DNA of 64,000 nt from Agrococcus jenensis (GTDB lineage: Bacteria > Actinomycetota > Actinomycetes > Actinomycetales > Microbacteriaceae): positions 2,418,001 through 2,482,000 of the forward strand of contig NZ_RKHJ01000001.1 in the NCBI RefSeq assembly GCF_003752465.1, given 5' to 3'. The position numbers were made by a program, and so were the translations under genes. Shown piece after piece: positions 3,239 to 56,307 of the stretch (the stretch's first letter is position 1; each line of letters opens with the position of its first letter). The notes beneath the pieces were generated by a model that had not been told where the DNA came from, did not search any database, and saw only the letters and a program-made list of their open reading frames with translations.

Positions 3239-4458
3239 GCCCCAGCCTTCGACGCGGGGGCGAGGCCGGCGCCGCGTCGCAGCTCCTCCTCGATCGCCTC
3301 GGCGAGGCGCTGCTCGATCTCGGGCACGCCGATCTTCTGCACGATCTCCATGAGGAAGCCGATCACGACGAGCCGGCGAGCCTGCTCCTCGTCGATGCCG
3401 CGCGACTCGAGGTAGAACAGCTGCTCGTCGTCGAAGCGGCCGGTCGCGGATGCGTGGCCGGCGCCGGCGATGTCGCCCGTCTGGATCTCGAGGTTCGGGA
3501 TGCTGTCGGCGCGGGCGCCGTCGGTGAGCACGAGGTTCTGGTTCTTCTCGTAGCTGTCGGTGCCGGTCGCGTCGCGGCCGATGAGCACGTCGCCCACCCA
3601 CACCGAGCGTGCGCCGATGCCCTGCAGGGCCCCCTTGTAGAGCACGTTGCCGCGCGTCTCGGTGCCCTCGTGGAACATGAACACCTGGCTCTCGATGTGC
3701 TGGCCGGCGTCGGCGAACGACAGGCCGTACATCTCGCCCTCGGCGCGGTGGCCCGCGAGGCGCATCGAGGGGTTCACCCGCACGACGCCGCCGCCGAACG
3801 AGACGACCATGTGCTTGAGGAACGCGCCCTCGCCCACGACCGCCTGGTGCGTCGAGGCGTGGACGGTGTCGTCCTCCCAGTCCTGCACCGAGATGACCGT
3901 GAGGCGTGCGCCGTCGCGGACGATGATCTCGACGTTCTGCGCGTAGCGCGCCGAGCCCGAGTGGTGCAGCACGACGGTGCCGATCGAGCCGGGCATGGCC
4001 TCGATGACGATGTGCGCGTTCGCGTGGCGGTCGGCGCCCGTGCCGTGCAGGCGCGCGATGACCGGCTCGGTCTGCTCGCTGCCCTCCGGCAGCCGCACGT
4101 GCAGCGCGTTGACGCCGCGCTTCCACGCGATGGCGCTGACGACGTCCTCGGGACGGAAGATCTCGCCGCGCACCGGGGCGTCGAGGCCGGTCGACTCGAC
4201 GAGCAGCCCCCGCTTCACGAGCGCCGCGACGTCGTGCTCGATCCCGGGCGTGCCGGTCTCGGTCTCCTCGTCGACGAACAGCGGCGCGAGGCGTCGCACG
4301 TCGGAGAGCTTCCAGTTGATCTCACGGCCGGTCGGCACGCCGAAGTCGGCGGGCTCGAACGACGTCGGGCGCTCCGAGCGCGTCTGGATCGGGACGAAGC
4401 GCTCGGCCGGCGCGGGCACGGCGCCCAGGGGGGCGGGGGTCGTGTCTGTCGCAGTCAT
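3235..4458 (-). CDS. sufD: Fe-S cluster assembly scaffold protein SufD
   Basis: A 407-residue SufB/SufD-family protein with the right-handed beta-helix core and the family C-terminus (TGRFDDEQLFYLESRG, then EEQARRLVVIGF). It forms the SufBC2D scaffold with SufB and SufC. The N-terminal 60 residues are variable and Pro/Ala-rich, as in other actinobacteria. The ATG at 4458 overlaps the sufB stop by one base, and the stop overlaps the Rieske gene by four bases, so the operon is translationally coupled throughout. Compared with sufB it lacks the longer N-terminal region, which separates the two paralogues. Confidence 0.95.
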   Translation of the reverse strand: MTATDTTPAPLGAVPAPAERFVPIQTRSERPTSFEPADFGVPTGREINWKLSDVRRLAPLFVDEETETGTPGIEHDVAALVKRGLLVESTGLDAPVRGEIFRPEDVVSAIAWKRGVNALHVRLPEGSEQTEPVIARLHGTGADRHANAHIVIEAMPGSIGTVVLHHSGSARYAQNVEIIVRDGARLTVISVQDWEDDTVHASTHQAVVGEGAFLKHMVVSFGGGVVRVNPSMRLAGHRAEGEMYGLSFADAGQHIESQVFMFHEGTETRGNVLYKGALQGIGARSVWVGDVLIGRDATGTDSYEKNQNLVLTDGARADSIPNLEIQTGDIAGAGHASATGRFDDEQLFYLESRGIDEEQARRLVVIGFLMEIVQKIGVPEIEQRLAEAIEEELRRGAGLAPASKAGA

Positions 4459-5876
4459 CAACCGACGGATCCTTCCATGCTCATCTCGATGAGCTTGTTG
4501 AGCTCGAGCGCGTACTCCATGGGCAGCTCGCGGGCGATCGGCTCGATGAAGCCGCGCACGATCATCGCCATCGCCTCGGTCTCGGCCAGGCCGCGCGACA
4601 TGAGGTAGAACAGCTGCTCCTCGCTCACCTTCGACACGGTCGCCTCGTGGCCGAGCACCACGTCGTCGACCCGGATGTCGATCGCCGGGTACGTGTCGGA
4701 GCGCGACATCGTGTCGACGAGCAGGGCGTCGCAGACGACGCTGTTCGCCGAGTGGTGCGCGTTCGCGTCGACCCGCACCTCGCCGCGGTAGCCGGCTCGG
4801 CCGCCGCCGCGCGCGATCGACTTCGAGACGATCGACGACGTCGTGTACGGCGCCATGTGGATCATCTTCGCGCCGGCGTCCTGGTGCTGGCCGGGGCCCG
4901 CGAACGCGACCGACAGGGTCTCGCCCTTCGCGCGCTCGCCCACGAGGTAGATCGACGGGTACTTCATGGTCACCTTGGAGCCGATGTTGCCGTCGATCCA
5001 CTCCATCGTCGCGCCCTCCTCGGCGATGGCGCGCTTCGTGACGAGGTTGTAGACGTTGTTCGACCAGTTCTGGATCGTCGTGTAGCGCACGCGGGCGTTC
5101 TTCTTCACGATGATCTCGACGACCGCGGAGTGCAGCGAGTCGGACGAGTAGATCGGGGCGGTGCAGCCCTCGATGTAGTGCACGTACGAGCCCTCGTCGG
5201 CGATGATGAGCGTGCGCTCGAACTGGCCCATGTTCTCGGTGTTGATCCGGAAGTAGGCCTGCAGCGGGATCTCGACGTGCACGCCCTTCGGCACGTAGAC
5301 GAACGAGCCGCCCGACCACACCGCGGTGTTGAGCGCGGCGAACTTGTTGTCGCCGGCCGGGATCACGGTGCCGAAGTACTCCTCGAAGAACTCCGGGTGC
5401 TCGCGGAGCGCCGTGTCGGTGTCCATGAAGATGACGCCCTGCGCCTCCAGGTCCTCCTGGATCTGGTGGTACACGACCTCCGACTCGTACTGCGCGGCGA
5501 CGCCGGAGACGAGGCGAGAGCGCTCGGCCTCCGGGATGCCCAGCCGGTCGTACGTGCTGCGGATGTCCTCGGGCAGGTCCTCCCAGGTCTGAGCCTGGCG
5601 CTCGGTCGACCGCACGAAGTACTTGATGTTGTCGAAGTCGATGCCGGAGATGTCGGCACCCCACGTGGGCATCGGCTTGCGCTCGAAGAGCTGCAGGCCC
5701 TTGAGGCGCCGCTCGAGCATCCAGTCGGTCTCGCTCTTCAGCTCCGAGATGTTGCGGACCACCGCTTCGCTGAGCCCTCGCTTGGCGACGGCTCCAGCCT
5801 CGTCGGAGTCGTGCCACCCGAACTCGTACTGCCCCAGGCTCTCGAGCTCTGGCCGGTCGATCAGGACGTCAGACAT
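4458..5876 (-). CDS. sufB: Fe-S cluster assembly scaffold protein SufB
   Basis: A 472-residue scaffold on which nascent [4Fe-4S] clusters form. It holds the SufB hallmark region [10 protein letters not shown], the beta-helix core and the C-terminal [20 protein letters not shown]. It is the first gene of the suf operon. A GTG at 5891 is in frame, but the ATG at 5876 is preceded by a strong ribosome binding site (AAGGGGGAG with a short spacer) and gives the usual N-terminus MSDVLID, so it is preferred. No sufS, sufU or SufR-type regulator gene is visible in this operon or directly upstream, where ctaA is divergent. Confidence 0.96.
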
Positions 5877-15660: not shown

Positions 15661-16592
15661 TCATCCGACTCTCCCGCACCACCACCGCAGAGGTGCAGCG
15701 GCGCATGCTCGAGATCCGCGACGAGGGCGGCGTCGTCGCCCTCGGCCGCGTGCTCACGCTCGTCGTGCACACGCAGATCGGCGCCGAGGAGGAGGCGATC
15801 CGCGCCGCGAACGCCGCCTCCCGCGAGCACCCGATGCGCGTCATCGTGGTCTCGCGCAACCCCGACCGGGTGAGCGCCAAGGAGGAGCCGCGCCTCGACG
15901 CGGAGCTGCGGGTCGGTGCCGACGCGGGTGCGAGCGAGGTCGTGCTGCTGCAGTGCTACGGCGAGCTCGGCTCGCACCTGCTCGGCATCGTGCAGGGCCT
16001 GCTGCTGCCGGATGCGCCGGTCGTCGCCTGGTGGCCGTCGTTCATGCCCGACCGCCCCTCGGGCGCGCAGCTGGGCCAGATCGCCCAGCGGCGCATCACC
16101 GACTCCGGCAAGCAGAAGGATCCGCGCGGCGCGATCCTCTCGCTCGCCGCCTGCTACGCGCCCGGCGACACCGACCTCGCGTGGACGCGGCTGACGAACT
16201 GGCGCGGCCACCTGGCCGCCCTGCTCGACCAGCCGCCGTACGAGGCGGTGCGCTCCGGGCTCGTCTCGGGCGACCTCTCGAACCCGAGCGTGCACCTCAT
16301 GGCCGCGTGGCTCGAGCTGCGGCTCGGCATCGAGGTCGAGAAGGTCGAGGCGGGCGACACCCCGGTGGGCTCGAGCGGCCTGCACGCCGTCGAGCTGCAC
16401 CGCGAGACCGGCGACTCCTCGCTCACGCGCGTGCGCGACTCCGTCGGCGTGCTCGAGCAGCCGGGGCAGCCGTCGCACCACGTCGCGCTCTCGACCCGGG
16501 GGCTCGAGGATCAGCTCGCGGAGGAGCTCCGCAAGCTCGACGCCGACGACATGTACCGCCAGGTGCTCGTCTCGACCCTCGAGGGCCGCTGA
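15657..16592 (+). CDS. opcA: Glucose-6-phosphate dehydrogenase assembly protein OpcA
   Basis: A 311-residue OpcA-family protein with a GTG start overlapping the zwf stop. Family features include the N-terminal LSRTTTAEVQRRM segment and the central VVAWWPSFMPDRPSGAQLG stretch. OpcA is needed for full activity or oligomerisation of glucose-6-phosphate dehydrogenase in cyanobacteria and actinobacteria; in cyanobacteria it relays redox control. Two cysteines are visible (LLQCYGE and LAACYAP), but whether they act as a redox switch here is unknown. The tight zwf overlap supports equimolar production. Confidence 0.94.
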   Translation: MIIRLSRTTTAEVQRRMLEIRDEGGVVALGRVLTLVVHTQIGAEEEAIRAANAASREHPMRVIVVSRNPDRVSAKEEPRLDAELRVGADAGASEVVLLQCYGELGSHLLGIVQGLLLPDAPVVAWWPSFMPDRPSGAQLGQIAQRRITDSGKQKDPRGAILSLAACYAPGDTDLAWTRLTNWRGHLAALLDQPPYEAVRSGLVSGDLSNPSVHLMAAWLELRLGIEVEKVEAGDTPVGSSGLHAVELHRETGDSSLTRVRDSVGVLEQPGQPSHHVALSTRGLEDQLAEELRKLDADDMYRQVLVSTLEGR

Positions 16593-17287
16593 TGCGCGCC
16601 ATCGTCGAGGGCGACCGCGTCGCGCTCGTCGCCGCGACGGCCGAGCGCCTGACGTCGCTGATCGCCGAGCTGATCGCGGAGCGCGGCGGCGCGGTCATCG
16701 CGCTCACCGGCGGCAGCGTCGGCATCGAGCTGCTGAGCGCGCTCGCCGACCGCGACATCGACTGGGAGCACGTCGTCGTCACCTGGAGCGACGAGCGCTT
16801 CGTCGAGGCGGACTCGTCGGACCGCAACGCGCGCCAGGCGCGGGAGGCGCTGCTCGACCGGGTGCCGATCCCCGCGGGCAGCGTGCTCGAGCTGCCGGCT
16901 GCCGACGGAGCGTCGCTCGACGCGGCGGCCGCGGCGGCCACCGAGCTGCTGGCCGGCGTGGGCGTCATCGACCTCACGCTCCTCGGCATGGGGCCCGACG
17001 CGCACGTCGCCTCGCTCTTCCCCGGCCTGCCGGGCGTGCGCGACACCGGCAGCCGGGTGATCGCCGTGCGGGACTCGCCCAAGCCGCCGCCGGAGCGGCT
17101 CAGCTTCACGCTCGAGGCGATCAACGCCTCCGACCGGGTCTGGCTCATCGTCGCCGGTGCCGACAAGGCGGACGCCGTCGCGCTCGCCGCGAGCGGCGCG
17201 AGCGCCGACGAGGCGCCGGCCGGCGCGGTGCACGGCCGGCTCGAGACGCTCATGCTGCTCGACGAGGACGCGGCCGCCCGCCTGTAG
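16592..17287 (+). CDS. pgl: 6-phosphogluconolactonase
   Basis: A 231-residue DevB/Pgl-type lactonase. Visible are ALTGGSVGIELL near the N-terminus, VVVTWSDERFV, and DLTLLGMGPDAHVASLFPG, the family motif that contains the catalytic histidine. It hydrolyses 6-phosphogluconolactone formed by Zwf. The ATG overlaps the opcA stop by one base, and this is the last gene of the operon. Gene gnd, for the next step, is not in the operon. No classical terminator follows; the first 20-bp repeat array begins 23 bp after the stop. Confidence 0.95.
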   Translation: MRAIVEGDRVALVAATAERLTSLIAELIAERGGAVIALTGGSVGIELLSALADRDIDWEHVVVTWSDERFVEADSSDRNARQAREALLDRVPIPAGSVLELPAADGASLDAAAAAATELLAGVGVIDLTLLGMGPDAHVASLFPGLPGVRDTGSRVIAVRDSPKPPPERLSFTLEAINASDRVWLIVAGADKADAVALAASGASADEAPAGAVHGRLETLMLLDEDAAARL

Positions 17288-17310
17288 CGGCGCTGCCCGC
17301 TCCCTGCTGG

Positions 17311-17490
17311 TGAGTGGTCACTCCCGCCCGTGAGTGGTCACTCCCGCGGGTGACTGGTCACCCCCGCAGGTGAGTGGTCACTGCGGCACGTGAGTGGTCA
17401 CTCCCGCGGGTGACTGGTCACTGCGGCACGTGAGTGGTCACTCCCGCACGTGAGTGGGCACGCCTGCAGCTGAGTGGCCACTCCGTACGT
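17311..17490 (+). repeat. Tandem array A1: nine units of a 20-bp repeat
   Basis: Nine head-to-tail units of exactly 20 bp, with no spacers. A typical unit is TGAGTGGTCACTCCCGCGGG. The first half holds an imperfect dyad GAGTG-GT-CACTC; the last three or four bases vary most. The last two units are the most diverged. The array starts 23 bp after pgl. The same unit occurs inverted in array A2 and again in arrays B1 and B2 near 54-55 kb. Confidence 0.95.
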
Positions 17491-17613
17491 CAGTCGCGTA
17501 CCCGAGCAGGAACGGGTCCGCAGGATCCCGTGACGCACCCCCTTCCGCACCTGCTGCTGAGTTCCCGTATACGCGACGCACGCGCAGCATCCAAGGCCGG
17601 CGGCAACGCTGGT
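17491..17613. other. Spacer between facing arrays A1 and A2
   Basis: About 120 bp of non-repeat sequence between two inverted arrays. No ribosome binding site with an ORF, no tRNA and no strong hairpin is seen. Open frames cross it only because the flanking repeats lack stop codons. The matching position at the second site holds a DUF559 gene. Confidence 0.6.
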
Positions 17614-17620
17614 GGCCGCT

Positions 17621-17820
17621 CACGCGCGGGACTGACCGCTCACGCGCGGGGTCGACCGCTCACACGCGGGATCGACCACTCACACGCGGGATCGACCACT
17701 CACACGCGGGATCGACCACTCACACGCGGGATCGACCACTCACACGTGGGATCGACCGCTCACGCGCGGGGTCGACCGCTCACGCGCGGGGCTGATCGCT
17801 CACACGCGGGGCTGACCGCT
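17621..17820 (-). repeat. Tandem array A2: ten units of the 20-bp repeat, inverted
   Basis: Ten units of exactly 20 bp. On the minus strand they read close to TGAGTGGTCGATCCCGCGTG, the same family as A1. Four consecutive units (17661-17740) are identical, indicating recent local duplication. The array ends just before the rbpA terminator hairpin. A partial eleventh unit (GGCCGCT) precedes it at 17614-17620. Confidence 0.95.
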
Positions 17821-17843
17821 CGCCTGCGCCGTGTGCGCGCGAA

Positions 17844-17898: not shown

Positions 17899-18255
17899 TC
17901 AGCCACGGCCTTCTGACGAGCGCAGCTTCTGCAGCGCCTCGTCGAGGAGCGAGACCGCCTCCTCGGGGGTGCGGCGCTCCTTCACGTACGCGAGGTGCGT
18001 CTTGTACGGCTCGTTCTTCGCCACCTGGGGCGGGTTCTCCTTGTCGCGACCCGCGGGCAGGCCGGTCGACGGGGAGTCGATCACCTCGGGGATCTCGTCC
18101 TCGGGGAGGTCGGCCGCGAAGTAGCGCACCGTCTCGTTGCCCATCGCGTCCCAGTAGGAGATGGCCACGCGCTCGGCGTGGAAGCCTCGGTCCTGCTCGC
18201 CCATGGGGCCCGCGCCGACGCGGGAGCCACGGATCGCACTGCCGCCGGACGCCAT
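17899..18255 (-). CDS. rbpA: RNA polymerase-binding protein RbpA
   Basis: A 118-residue actinobacterial RNA polymerase-associated factor that stabilises open complexes with the principal sigma factor. Visible are the disordered N-terminus (SAIRGSRVGAGPMGEQDRG), the central beta-barrel core, and the C-terminal sigma-interacting helix TPEEAVSLLDEALQKLR. The usual zinc cysteines of some homologues are absent, as is common outside Streptomyces. The ATG at 18255 overlaps the secG stop by one base (TGATG). It is the last gene of a glycolytic operon, followed by a strong terminator. Confidence 0.94.
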   Translation of the reverse strand: MASGGSAIRGSRVGAGPMGEQDRGFHAERVAISYWDAMGNETVRYFAADLPEDEIPEVIDSPSTGLPAGRDKENPPQVAKNEPYKTHLAYVKERRTPEEAVSLLDEALQKLRSSEGRG

Positions 18256-53720: not shown

Positions 53721-54152
53721 GTGACCCAGCTCGACGCCCAGACGCAAGCGGTGCTCGATGCCCAGGGCGAGGTGCCCGGCGGCGAGCTCTCGGCGCGGAT
53801 GGGCATCGAGTTCGTGAAGCTCTCGGCCGAGCACTCGATCGCGCGGATGCCGGTCGACGGCAACCGGCAGCCGGCCGGCTTCGTGCACGGCGGCGCGTAC
53901 TGCGTCATCGCCGAGAGCCTCGGCTCGATCAGCGCGAACATCCACGCCGGCGAGGGCGGCTACGCCGTGGGCGTCGACATCAACGCGACCCACACGCGCT
54001 CGATCACGAGCGGCTGGGTCAACGCGGAGTGCAAGGCGGTCCACCTCGGGCGCTCGATGACCGTGCACGAGATCGTCTGCACCGACGACGACGGCAACCG
54101 CGCGTCGACCCTCCGCATCACGAACTTCATCAAGCGCCACCCGAGCGCGTAG
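53721..54152 (+). CDS. Hotdog-fold thioesterase (PaaI type)
   Basis: A 143-residue protein of the 4HBT/PaaI family. The catalytic-loop motif GFVHGGAYCVIAESLGS is near residue 53, and VGVDINATHTRSI near 85 is typical of acyl-CoA thioesterases. The substrate is not evident. GTG 53721 is preceded by GGGAG at 5 nt. It is divergent from polA, a common actinobacterial pairing. The first unit of repeat array B1 begins 15 bp after the stop. Confidence 0.88.
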   Translation: MTQLDAQTQAVLDAQGEVPGGELSARMGIEFVKLSAEHSIARMPVDGNRQPAGFVHGGAYCVIAESLGSISANIHAGEGGYAVGVDINATHTRSITSGWVNAECKAVHLGRSMTVHEIVCTDDDGNRASTLRITNFIKRHPSA

Positions 54153-54167: not shown

Positions 54168-54367
54168 CGAGCGGTCACTCCCGAACGTGAGTGGTCACTC
54201 CCGGATCTGAGCGGTCAATCCGGAGCCTGAGTGGTCACTCCCGAGCGCGAGCGGTCAATCCGGAGCCTGAGCGGTCACTCCGGAGCCTGAGCGGTCAATC
54301 CGGAGCCTGAGCGGTCAATCCGGAGCCTGAGTGGCCACTCCGGAGCCACAGCGGTCACTGCCGAGCG
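54168..54367 (+). repeat. Tandem array B1: ten units of the 20-bp repeat
   Basis: Ten head-to-tail units of exactly 20 bp with a degenerate eleventh to about 54387. The commonest unit is TGAGCGGTCAATCCGGAGCC; others are closer to TGAGTGGTCACTCCCGAGCG. Orientation matches A1. It fills the space between the 3' end of the thioesterase gene and the 3' end of the DUF559 gene. The dyad GAGTG-GN-CACTC is retained in some units only. Confidence 0.95.
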
Positions 54368-54415
54368 CGAGAGGCCGTGACCTCACCCGTCCGTACGCGG
54401 CCTGAGGGAGATCGC

Positions 54416-55297
54416 TCAAGCAGCGCTCCAGGAGGAGTAGCGCTCGTACGCGGCCACGATCCCCCGCAGGAGCTGCTGTCCGCCGTCGAGCAGATCGTCC
54501 TTCGTGACCACGATGATGTGCCAGCCCAACGCCCGCAGCTTCTGACGGCGGATGCGGTCGCGCTCCTGCTGGGCAGGATCCGTGTGATGCTCGCCGTCGT
54601 ACTCCACGGCCAGCTTCAGGCGGGGCCAGCTGAGGTCGAGTCGCGCGACGAACATGCCCGTCGCGTCGAACACCTCATGCTGGAGCACCGGCGCGGGCAG
54701 CGCGCCGATGATCAGGAGGCGCAGCAGGGATTCCCGCGGCGATTCCGCCCCGACGCAGACGAGCGCCAGCGCTCGCCGAGCCAGGTGGAGCCCACGGGCT
54801 CCCTCGTAGCGCCGCAGCGCATCCGTCAAGTCTTGGACCGTGAGCGGATCACGCCGCTTCGTCGACACCAGCCAGTCCCCGACCGCGACCAGCTCCTCGA
54901 GGCTCAGCATGGTGGCCAGGTGCACGAACGTGTCGGCTCTCGCTTCCACCCGCAGCCCGTCGACCTCCTCCACCGCAGACTTGAGGCGGTGGCCGACGAC
55001 GCCGGGCCGTCGCATGCGGGAGCCGCCAGTCGGAGACGCGAGGTGGACTCTGGCCTCCCTCTCGAACCGCGACGGCAGCGGCATGCCATGGATGCGTGCA
55101 GCGGTCGTGTGGCAGAAGAAGCTGTCCTGCCGCGCGAGCACGCGAACTGCCTCGAGCAGCGCTCGCGCCTCGTCGCCGACGGCCGCGGTGATGCGGGCGC
55201 CGCGGGCCGGTCTCGTGAACGCCATCGAGCGCAGCTCTGCTGCGGTGTATCCCCGCTCCAGGCCTTGCCGGATCGTGAAGCCGTGCGGACTCTCCAT
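54416..55297 (-). CDS. DUF559 / Vsr-fold endonuclease-like protein between inverted repeat arrays
   Basis: A 293-residue protein. The N-terminal 60 residues (GFTIRQGLERGYTAAELRSM) look like the winged-helix segment found in AbiEi-like and related actinobacterial proteins. The C-terminal 110 residues are a DUF559/PD-(D/E)XK nuclease fold with the active-site set ARLDLSWPRLKLAVEYDGEH and a following RRQKLRALGWHIIVVT strand. ATG 55297 gives the family-like start; an in-frame GTG at 55444 would add 49 unconserved residues. CATCAT lies 7 nt upstream as a weak -10. Codon use is less extreme than in neighbours. It interrupts the expected thioesterase-pdtaR order and is flanked by arrays B1 and B2. 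Confidence 0.8.
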   Translation of the reverse strand: MESPHGFTIRQGLERGYTAAELRSMAFTRPARGARITAAVGDEARALLEAVRVLARQDSFFCHTTAARIHGMPLPSRFEREARVHLASPTGGSRMRRPGVVGHRLKSAVEEVDGLRVEARADTFVHLATMLSLEELVAVGDWLVSTKRRDPLTVQDLTDALRRYEGARGLHLARRALALVCVGAESPRESLLRLLIIGALPAPVLQHEVFDATGMFVARLDLSWPRLKLAVEYDGEHHTDPAQQERDRIRRQKLRALGWHIIVVTKDDLLDGGQQLLRGIVAAYERYSSWSAA

Positions 55298-55461
55298 GCG
55301 GAGGATGATGCCTGCAGCGCTGCAGCCCGGCGGGCCACTGCCGTCCCGGCTGTGGAGAGACGCGGTGCTCAGCGGATGCCCACGCAGCCCGCTGATGACC
55401 GCTCGGGCGATCGCAAGCCGCTCGCGCACGGTGACGACCCTCACCGGCGAGCGTCACCACT

Positions 55462-55640
55462 CGCAGGCGGGGCTGACCGCTCACGGGAGGCGTGACCACT
55501 CATGCGCGGGGATGACCACTCACGCGCGGGGATGACCACCCACGCGCGGGCATGACCACTCACGCGCGGGAATGACCACTCACGCGCGGGAATGACCACT
55601 CACGCGCGGGAATGACCACTCACGCGCGGGCGCGACCACT
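55462..55640 (-). repeat. Tandem array B2: nine units of the 20-bp repeat, inverted
   Basis: Nine units, eight of 20 bp and one of 19 bp. On the minus strand they read close to TGAGTGGTCATTCCCGCGCG. Three consecutive units (55561-55620) are identical. It lies upstream of the DUF559 gene and 25 bp beyond the pdtaR stop. Together with B1 it forms an inverted pair around the DUF559 gene, in the same relative orientation as A1 and A2. The remaining bases of 55298-55461 hold no gene or clear signal beyond the alternative start at 55444. Confidence 0.95.
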
Positions 55641-55665
55641 CGCGGGCGCGGAGGGCCGCGGCGGG

Positions 55666-56307
55666 CTACTTCTTGGGGGCGCCGAGCTGCTCGATGACAG
55701 CCTGGGCGACCTCGGCCATCGTGAGGCGGCGGTCCATCGAGGCCTTCTGGATCCAGCGGAACGCCTCCGGCTCGGCGAGGCCCATGCGCTGGTTCAGCAG
55801 GCCCTTCGCGCGGTCGACGAGCTTGCGCGTCTCGAAGCGGTCGGCGAGGTCGGCGACCTCGCTCTCGAGCGTGCGGATCTGGTCCCAGCGGGCCAGCGCG
55901 ATCTCGATCGCCGGCAGCAGGTCGTTCTGCGTGAACGGCTTCACGACGTAGGCGAGCGCCCCAGCCTCGCCGGCGCGCTCGACGAGCTCCTTCTGGCTGA
56001 AGGCGGTCAGCAGCACGACGGGCGCGATCTTCTCGGCGCTGATGCGCTCGGCCGCGGTGATGCCGTCCATCTTGGGCATCTTCACGTCCATGACGATGAG
56101 GTCGGGCTTCAGCTCCTTCGCGAGCTCGACCGCGCGCTCGCCGTCGCCCGCCTCGCCGATCACGTCGAAGCCTGCGGCCTGGAGCGTCTCGACGATGTCG
56201 AGGCGGATGAGCGACTCGTCCTCGGCGACGAGCACGGTGCGCGAGGTGGAGGGCGTCTCAGCAGGTGCGGACCCGAGCTCGGGCTCGGCGAAGAGGTCGT
56301 CGGTCAT
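55666..56307 (-). CDS. pdtaR: ANTAR-domain response regulator (PdtaR type)
   Basis: A 213-residue regulator. Residues 20-140 are a receiver domain with the acidic pair in LVAEDESLIRLD, phosphoacceptor Asp in LIVMDVKMPKMDG (near 72), and Lys in YVVKPFTQ. Residues 150-205 are an ANTAR RNA-binding domain (RKLVDRAKGLLNQRMGLAEP and DRRLTMAEVAQAV). Such proteins act as transcription antiterminators by binding paired hexaloop hairpins; Mycobacterium PdtaR is the nearest named relative. The partner kinase PdtaS is not in the window. The ATG lies 7 nt after TAGGCT, indicating a leaderless mRNA. Confidence 0.93.
   Translation of the reverse strand: MTDDLFAEPELGSAPAETPSTSRTVLVAEDESLIRLDIVETLQAAGFDVIGEAGDGERAVELAKELKPDLIVMDVKMPKMDGITAAERISAEKIAPVVLLTAFSQKELVERAGEAGALAYVVKPFTQNDLLPAIEIALARWDQIRTLESEVADLADRFETRKLVDRAKGLLNQRMGLAEPEAFRWIQKASMDRRLTMAEVAQAVIEQLGAPKK

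Follow-up and report, generated by a model that had tools for sequence, protein, structure and literature searches.

REP-type palindromes are common repeats of bacterial genomes. In the literature consulted, they are linked to enzymes of the Y1 HUH transposase class, and for one large group, the CGTC-tagged REPs, mostly of Alphaproteobacteria, no dedicated transposase was reported (PMC3733652). The cassette analyzed here resembles the REP/REPIN-RAYT units (REPtrons) portrayed in PMC3733652 and PMC3116915: a nuclease gene is framed by inverted palindromes; as in REPINs, dispersed inverted pairs have conserved arms and a variable spacer; and, as in REPs, the palindromes lie between convergent or co-directional genes near 3′ ends, with a short tag at the palindrome end. 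In contrast to REPtrons, the enzyme is an AbiEi-DUF559 nuclease, the tag is YGA(G) rather than GTAG, and in Agrococcus the arms are amplified into 20-bp arrays. Since the layout is REPtron-like and the enzyme unrelated, we place the cassette outside the REP/REPIN-RAYT family. The palindromes are like the CGTC-tagged REPs of PMC3733652 in that no Y1 transposase was found with them in the 20 genomes searched, but the CGTC tag occurs in just two of 62 arms (2.7 expected).

On balance, we lean toward reading the cassette as a gene-bearing copy of a REPtron-like unit, in which an AbiEi-like/DUF559 nuclease is framed by its own cognate palindromes and gene-less copies are dispersed. A nuclease framed by its own repeats suggests an undescribed kind of self-spreading DNA unit. 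We found no open-access paper joining DUF559 or AbiEi-DUF559 proteins with such repeats, and “repeats”, “palindrom” and “inverted” are absent as words from the text consulted on a Vsr-like protein of Caulobacter (PMC12907096). The AbiEi-like N-terminal domain may be shared with the AbiE (AbiEi/AbiEii) toxin–antitoxin systems; unlike there, it is fused to a nuclease, and no AbiEii toxin gene lies beside the nuclease gene at the window locus or, by annotation, in five relatives (one neighbor is an unnamed hypothetical).

The window, that is, the whole 64,000-nucleotide stretch analyzed, corresponds to C1:2418001-2482000 of a 2.96-Mb Agrococcus genome (code G000). A preliminary description had placed a DUF559 gene between two inward-facing arrays, B1 and B2, at the junction of a thioesterase gene and pdtaR; the positions, orientations and 20-bp period of the arrays were confirmed, and the neighbors proved to be a 4HBT thioesterase and an ANTAR-domain response regulator (Table 1). 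The second array pair that it had reported in the window (A1/A2) is also present and inward-facing, with no gene called between its arrays. Each pair is bordered by convergent genes, and every one of the four arrays follows a stop codon. The array unit consists of GAGYGGTCRNTCCSG and a variable tail, with a period of 20 bp. Allowing up to two mismatches, GAGYGGTCRNTCCSG gave 46 matches in the window versus a shuffle mean of 17.9, and 46 was reached in none of 100 shuffles. Among 136 units from the eight pairs of the window genome, the most constant part is the first nine bases except position 4. A CRISPR array was considered and rejected, as the 20-bp units abut without spacers.

Table 1. Array pairs, nuclease gene and neighboring genes in the window (window coordinates)
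Feature	Position	Strand	Description
Array A1	17310..17484	+	Inward-facing pair without a gene; 3′ of 6-phosphogluconolactonase-type gene (16592-17287, +)
Array A2	17613..17821	-	Partner of A1; 3′ of RbpA gene (17899-18255, -)
4HBT thioesterase gene	53721..54152	+	Left neighbor, convergent toward the cassette
Array B1	54168..54367	+	About ten 20-bp units, GAGYGGTCAMTCCSG.., in sense orientation, directly 3′ of the thioesterase gene
AbiEi-like/DUF559 nuclease gene	54416..55297	-	293 aa; Pfam and PADLOC scans, orthologue alignment, dN/dS
Array B2	55454/55462..55641	-	About ten 20-bp units; directly 3′ of pdtaR, 5′ of the nuclease gene
pdtaR-like response regulator gene with ANTAR domain	55666..56307	-	Right neighbor, convergent toward the cassette

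The start of the nuclease gene was assigned to the ATG at 55297, because orthologues support it over the longer GTG reading frame, which extends to 55444. The C-terminus of the window protein is a nuclease domain of Vsr/DUF559, PD-(D/E)XK type; here the Pfam match to DUF559 was above the cut-off and that to MTES_1575, a name that originates from PMC3710099, below it. The N-terminus was AbiEi-like by PADLOC, weakly so in the window protein (E 9.6e-5), whose Pfam scan returned no AbiEi; an AbiEi match was obtained in five of six scanned relatives, at best 5e-11, L237 being the one without. This N-terminus is probably a DNA-binding winged-helix domain. Two scanned DUF559-domain proteins of other types gave no AbiEi match. 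The nuclease is under purifying selection (dN/dS 0.14–0.27 against 12 orthologues) and has conserved active-site-type residues: E189, R193, D221, H238 and R250 are invariant among 80 homologues, and D247 and E232 are conserved in 99% and 94%, respectively. One phage record matched the protein (E 3e-8), which touches on the idea of a phage origin.

Each locus was scored by the best ungapped inverted repeat between its two 450-bp flanks, with a threshold of at least 15. The supposition that DUF559 genes of relatives lie within inverted repeats above expectation was borne out. The threshold was reached at 26 of 28 Agrococcus loci, a set that includes 15 non-independent orthologues at one junction and leaves out L186 and L199, the two pieces of the G005 gene. 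It was also reached at 31 of 50 loci from other genera of Microbacteriaceae (32–43% identity), a non-random set of 30 of the best matches and 20 further ones out of more than 100 listed. Scores of at least 17 were obtained at 23/28 and 25/50 loci, respectively, and the two Agrococcus loci below the threshold (L185 and L194) both scored 14. Among controls, the threshold was reached by 0 of 78 gene-centered loci, 0 of 70 genes between convergent neighbors, two of 93 random positions and three of 329 genes in a larger set, one of which reached 17 (Fisher P 5e-29 for 31/50 versus 3/329). The larger set excludes DUF559 genes and genes with at least three array words in both flanks; the word filter was effective without the CCA word, which only makes the control stricter.

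The repeats differ between genes, and within one gene the upstream and downstream copies are near-identical. At the 31 positive loci, the arm has a hairpin partner in both flanks in 18 cases, in one flank in nine and in neither in four. Among the 36 other-genus homologue genes with both neighbors called, 25 lie between convergent genes and one between divergent genes. In a plasmid collection, four of the first five loci and two of three further Tsukamurella loci were framed: three of three in Arthrobacter (two strains) and three of four in Tsukamurella (one strain), with one partial Nonomuraea match (L264) unframed and counted as a miss; for L260 and L262 the match defined the gene ends, and L274 (Rhodococcus) was unscored, its left flank being too short. 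No inverted repeats were detected at six DUF559-domain proteins of other types (Bacillota, a cyanobacterium, Streptomyces and Sphingobium), including one locus from the alphaproteobacterium Sphingobium.

Homologues with 45–58% identity occupy two other Agrococcus sites, each found in several genomes. One site has a luciferase-like monooxygenase gene and typA/BipA as convergent neighbors, the other a peptidase M50 gene and GcpE as co-directional ones; here too, inverted repeats frame the homologues, with other sequences. By eye, the ends of L194, L195 and L197 hold plain hairpins, and L187 and L198 carry the outer arm in several copies, suggesting that the arrays arise by duplication of the outer arm of an end palindrome. 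Elsewhere in the window genome, at 291, 504 and 800 kb (L050, L049 and L045), DUF559-type genes have other inverted repeats in both flanks (scores 18, 29 and 29), and a fourth further gene of this type (L048) scores 11. A distant homologue in G001 (L190; 37–38% identity) is framed by repeats with a period of about 41 bp that contain GGTACC.

The palindromes might be moved by something else, with the nuclease gene as cargo or passenger. Such a division would accommodate the 19 of 50 other-genus loci below the threshold, the seven of eight array pairs of the window genome that are gene-less, and the lack of correlation between protein and arm similarity over the 31 loci (Mantel 0.055; 420 of 2000 permutations as high). 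We nevertheless consider it distinctly improbable: the association is far above controls and extends to other genera and orders, the repeats are gene-specific, and the Y1 transposase (Y1_Tnp, PF01797), the only transposase class searched, was found in none of 20 genomes (15 Agrococcus and five other Microbacteriaceae; a search control matched in five of 14 named genomes). A RAYT as the mover was rejected on the result of this search.

The arms also have a common tag. YGA stands within the first ten bases of 47 of the 62 arms, which form 31 non-independent up/down pairs, and YGAG in 33, versus about 13.8–13.9 and about 4 in shuffles; the REPtron tag GTAG occurs in one arm (1.6 expected). Ordinary intrinsic terminators or chance tandem repeats would agree with the location at gene 3′ ends, and a separate terminator-like hairpin does stand behind the RbpA gene. 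This explanation is already contradicted by the controls and is hardly credible, since neither the similar repeats that flank the gene on either side, seen at none of the control genes between convergent neighbors, nor the common YGA tag conforms to it.

In all three genomes outside Agrococcus examined for dispersal, the palindrome of the gene is dispersed. The arm from G046, with at most one mismatch, gave 12 matches in its own genome versus one for the reversed control. They comprise four inverted pairs, spaced by about 41 bp and in one case beside the gene, and three further single arms; the second gene-side copy has a more diverged partner arm. The arms are constant and the loops variable. 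The Tsukamurella palindrome was found at 20 places in eight records of one strain, with three short matches only elsewhere, and the Arthrobacter palindrome at 12 places in two records of one strain and nowhere else; because a palindrome matches on both strands, the sites probably number about half of these counts. The records NZ_LR134451 to NZ_LR134468, labeled as plasmids of Tsukamurella tyrosinosolvens NCTC13231, carry purB, ftsH, gatA and pcrA and look like chromosome pieces.

Most gene-less palindrome copies directly follow a stop codon, and convergent genes are a frequent setting. Of the seven Tsukamurella copies that were fetched, five have convergent and two co-directional neighbors. 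Six begin 0–10 bp behind a stop codon; the seventh is 30 bp from the 3′ end of one gene and reaches the annotated start of a second one. The arms are conserved among these copies, the loops unrelated. The combination of gene-flanking and dispersed 3′-end palindromes fits REP/REPtron-like behavior better than homing.

The palindromes could instead be immobile binding sites, with the AbiEi-like domain repressing its own gene and binding dispersed chromosomal or regulatory sites, for example to insulate convergent genes, and the nuclease domain serving another purpose. AbiEi binds inverted repeats, and the N-terminus of the nuclease is AbiEi-like. The preference of array pairs for convergent junctions and the resemblance of arrays of like units to multi-site binding platforms also speak for this model. 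We regard it as unlikely, though deserving of some weight, because the copies stand on both sides of the gene, its 3′ end included, because six of the seven dispersed Tsukamurella copies are away from promoters, because their arms are conserved and their loops unrelated, as in REPINs, and because the active-site-type residues are retained.

An exact two-unit pattern of the arrays gave 35 + 40 matches in the window genome versus 0 + 0 for the reversed control, and was present in 11 of 24 Agrococcus genomes and five of 175 other genomes searched. The window genome has eight array loci, all of them inward-facing pairs, at 1.852, 2.370, 2.436 (window), 2.472 (window, nuclease), 2.513, 2.673, 2.746 and 2.944 Mb; a called gene is enclosed only by the 2.472-Mb pair. 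Among the six pairs outside the window, five are between convergent genes by our own gene calls, and that at 2.513 Mb is between co-directional genes. All eight pairs fall within one part of the chromosome, 1.85–2.95 Mb.

We collected 46 stretches by the exact TCA-core pattern from the window genome, G005, G007, G011, G014, G016, G020, G022 and G181 (the last from another family), excluding seven weaker stretches (L033, L038–L043) and opposite-strand echoes and keeping runs of fewer than three units only if exact. They yielded 36 pairs and 11 single arrays, and every pair is inward-facing (36/36). The pairs lie between convergent genes in 24 cases, between co-directional genes in 7 and 4, and between divergent genes in one. 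For comparison, eight of 51 adjacent gene pairs in the window are convergent, as are 37 of 142 pairs of adjacent genes more than 60 bp apart in the same stretches, array junctions themselves included. The mostly convergent and hardly divergent context indicates that the arrays are mainly 3′-end elements. Unit similarity is 0.764 within one arm (without self-pairs), 0.685 between arms of different loci and 0.66 between opposite arms of one pair. The high likeness within an arm but not between opposite arms fits local duplication rather than pairing of two arrays. A long hairpin kept by array pairing was rejected as well: the opposite arms of a pair resemble each other no more than arms taken from different loci do.

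The thioesterase–pdtaR junction was compared in 24 Agrococcus genomes. A nuclease-family gene stands there in 19, in 18 of them within one stretch and in G014 split by a contig end. The search for empty sites called for in the preliminary description was productive, as five genomes (G001, G002, G009, G012 and G015) have the junction without the gene. In G009, whose pdtaR is 98% identical, both the gene and the arrays are missing and one unit-like word is left, the genome being a 65% complete metagenome bin. TRF detects 20-bp arrays on both sides in 13 of the 16 genomes whose copy is at least 58% identical; degraded units are visible at the junction in G007 and G017. Inverted repeats also stand on both sides of each of the more diverged copies in G008, G021 and G023 (44–48%), with scores of 25, 50 and 16. 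In G005, the junction gene is interrupted (L131, about 3613–4600) with both arrays still present, and relatives have intact copies. In G014 (A. lahaulensis), the upstream array side runs into a reading frame with an integrase core domain (rve) at the contig edge (L116, 9488–9965), which is an insertion sequence.

The 15 junction copies placed on the tree, which leaves out those of G005, G008, G021 and G023, form one clade. This and the high occupancy make the junction gene look like an old resident rather than a recent insertion. The gene tree groups largely by junction, so that moves of the whole cassette look rare. By eye, filled and empty junctions were too diverged to define ends for a target-site duplication, the mark of a TIR transposon or MITE.

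These data bear on a homing-endonuclease-like selfish gene, which would cut cassette-less junctions and be copied in by recombination, the repeats being its mere ends. The closest solved structure is 3r3p, a mobile intron protein, with a marginal E of 0.028, so that the nuclease possibly shares the fold of the Vsr-fold homing endonucleases, such as I-Bth0305I. The existence of insert-less alleles at the same place, next to 19 occupied ones, is also like homing endonuclease genes. Unlike the Vsr-fold homing endonucleases, however, the gene here lies outside introns and its cognate palindromes are dispersed; homing leaves the dispersed gene-less palindromes and arrays unexplained, and the single clade of the placed copies gives no sign of recent invasion. 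We therefore think this account very improbable. The initial idea of a mobile or homing-like cassette accordingly held in part: the nuclease is tied to inverted repeats and junctions without the gene exist, but a homing-like entry was not supported, given the 19/24 occupancy, the one clade and the predominance of gene-less array pairs.

Returning to the REPtron-like unit that we prefer, we infer that the nuclease binds and cuts its palindrome and takes part in its spread. The AbiEi-like N-terminus would bind the palindrome arms, the nuclease domain would nick or cut at the palindrome, and repair or copying would then disperse the palindrome and, on rare occasions, the entire cassette. Local tandem duplication of the palindrome arms would have produced the 20-bp arrays of Agrococcus and with them the inward-facing pairs. 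A broader proposal, about which we are almost evenly divided with doubt slightly prevailing, is that, across Actinomycetes, AbiEi-DUF559 nucleases act as dedicated spreaders and keepers of dispersed palindromes that form a large set so far undescribed. They would make up a REPtron-like class in which a PD-(D/E)XK nuclease replaces the HUH transposase; the Agrococcus arms would have become tandem arrays marking many convergent junctions, and the enzyme that the CGTC-tagged REPs lack might be a nuclease of this kind. If this is true, a second, unrelated nuclease class is tied to its own palindromes, which amounts to a new route of origin for bacterial intergenic repeats. It would also give a testable function to a family named only “DUF559 domain-containing protein”, and provide new nucleases, each with a predicted cognate site adjoining its own gene.

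The arrays further differ in the unit core. The core is TCA in G000, G005, G020 and G007, CCA in G010 and G018, and CGC in G003, G004, G006, G011, G013, G014, G016, G019 and G022, with few CGC units in G017. On the nuclease tree, the core type changes three times versus a shuffled mean of 4.8 (as low in two of 200 shuffles), a low count that may reflect common descent alone. Unit matches number 11–78 in the 15 Agrococcus genomes with a nuclease copy at least 63% identical versus 0–5 in the other nine; these counts sum TCA pairs and CGC/CCA units, junction units included, in related genomes of unequal completeness. G014, G016 and G022 have CGC-core arrays at the thioesterase–pdtaR junction, but many of their dispersed arrays are TCA-core; in G014, CGC arrays are dispersed too. 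Either older elements made the TCA arrays, or the link between nuclease and array is loose. At C2:146811-147160 of G014 (L148), a CGC-core array lies beside TCA-core arrays, as if two generations were layered.

Two further repeats were noticed. A second palindrome family in the window genome, with the arm CGATTGGTCGC.. and in some cases a 30-bp spacing, occurs on C1 at about 425 (L039), 496 (L040), 615 (L038) and 2382 kb (L033), and by eye resembles the ends of L195 and L197 in style. The 7.8-Mb genome G181, of another family in the same order, has one isolated array of the Agrococcus type, with six 20-bp units (GAGTGGTCACCCCCCAACGT; L168, 3040–3148).
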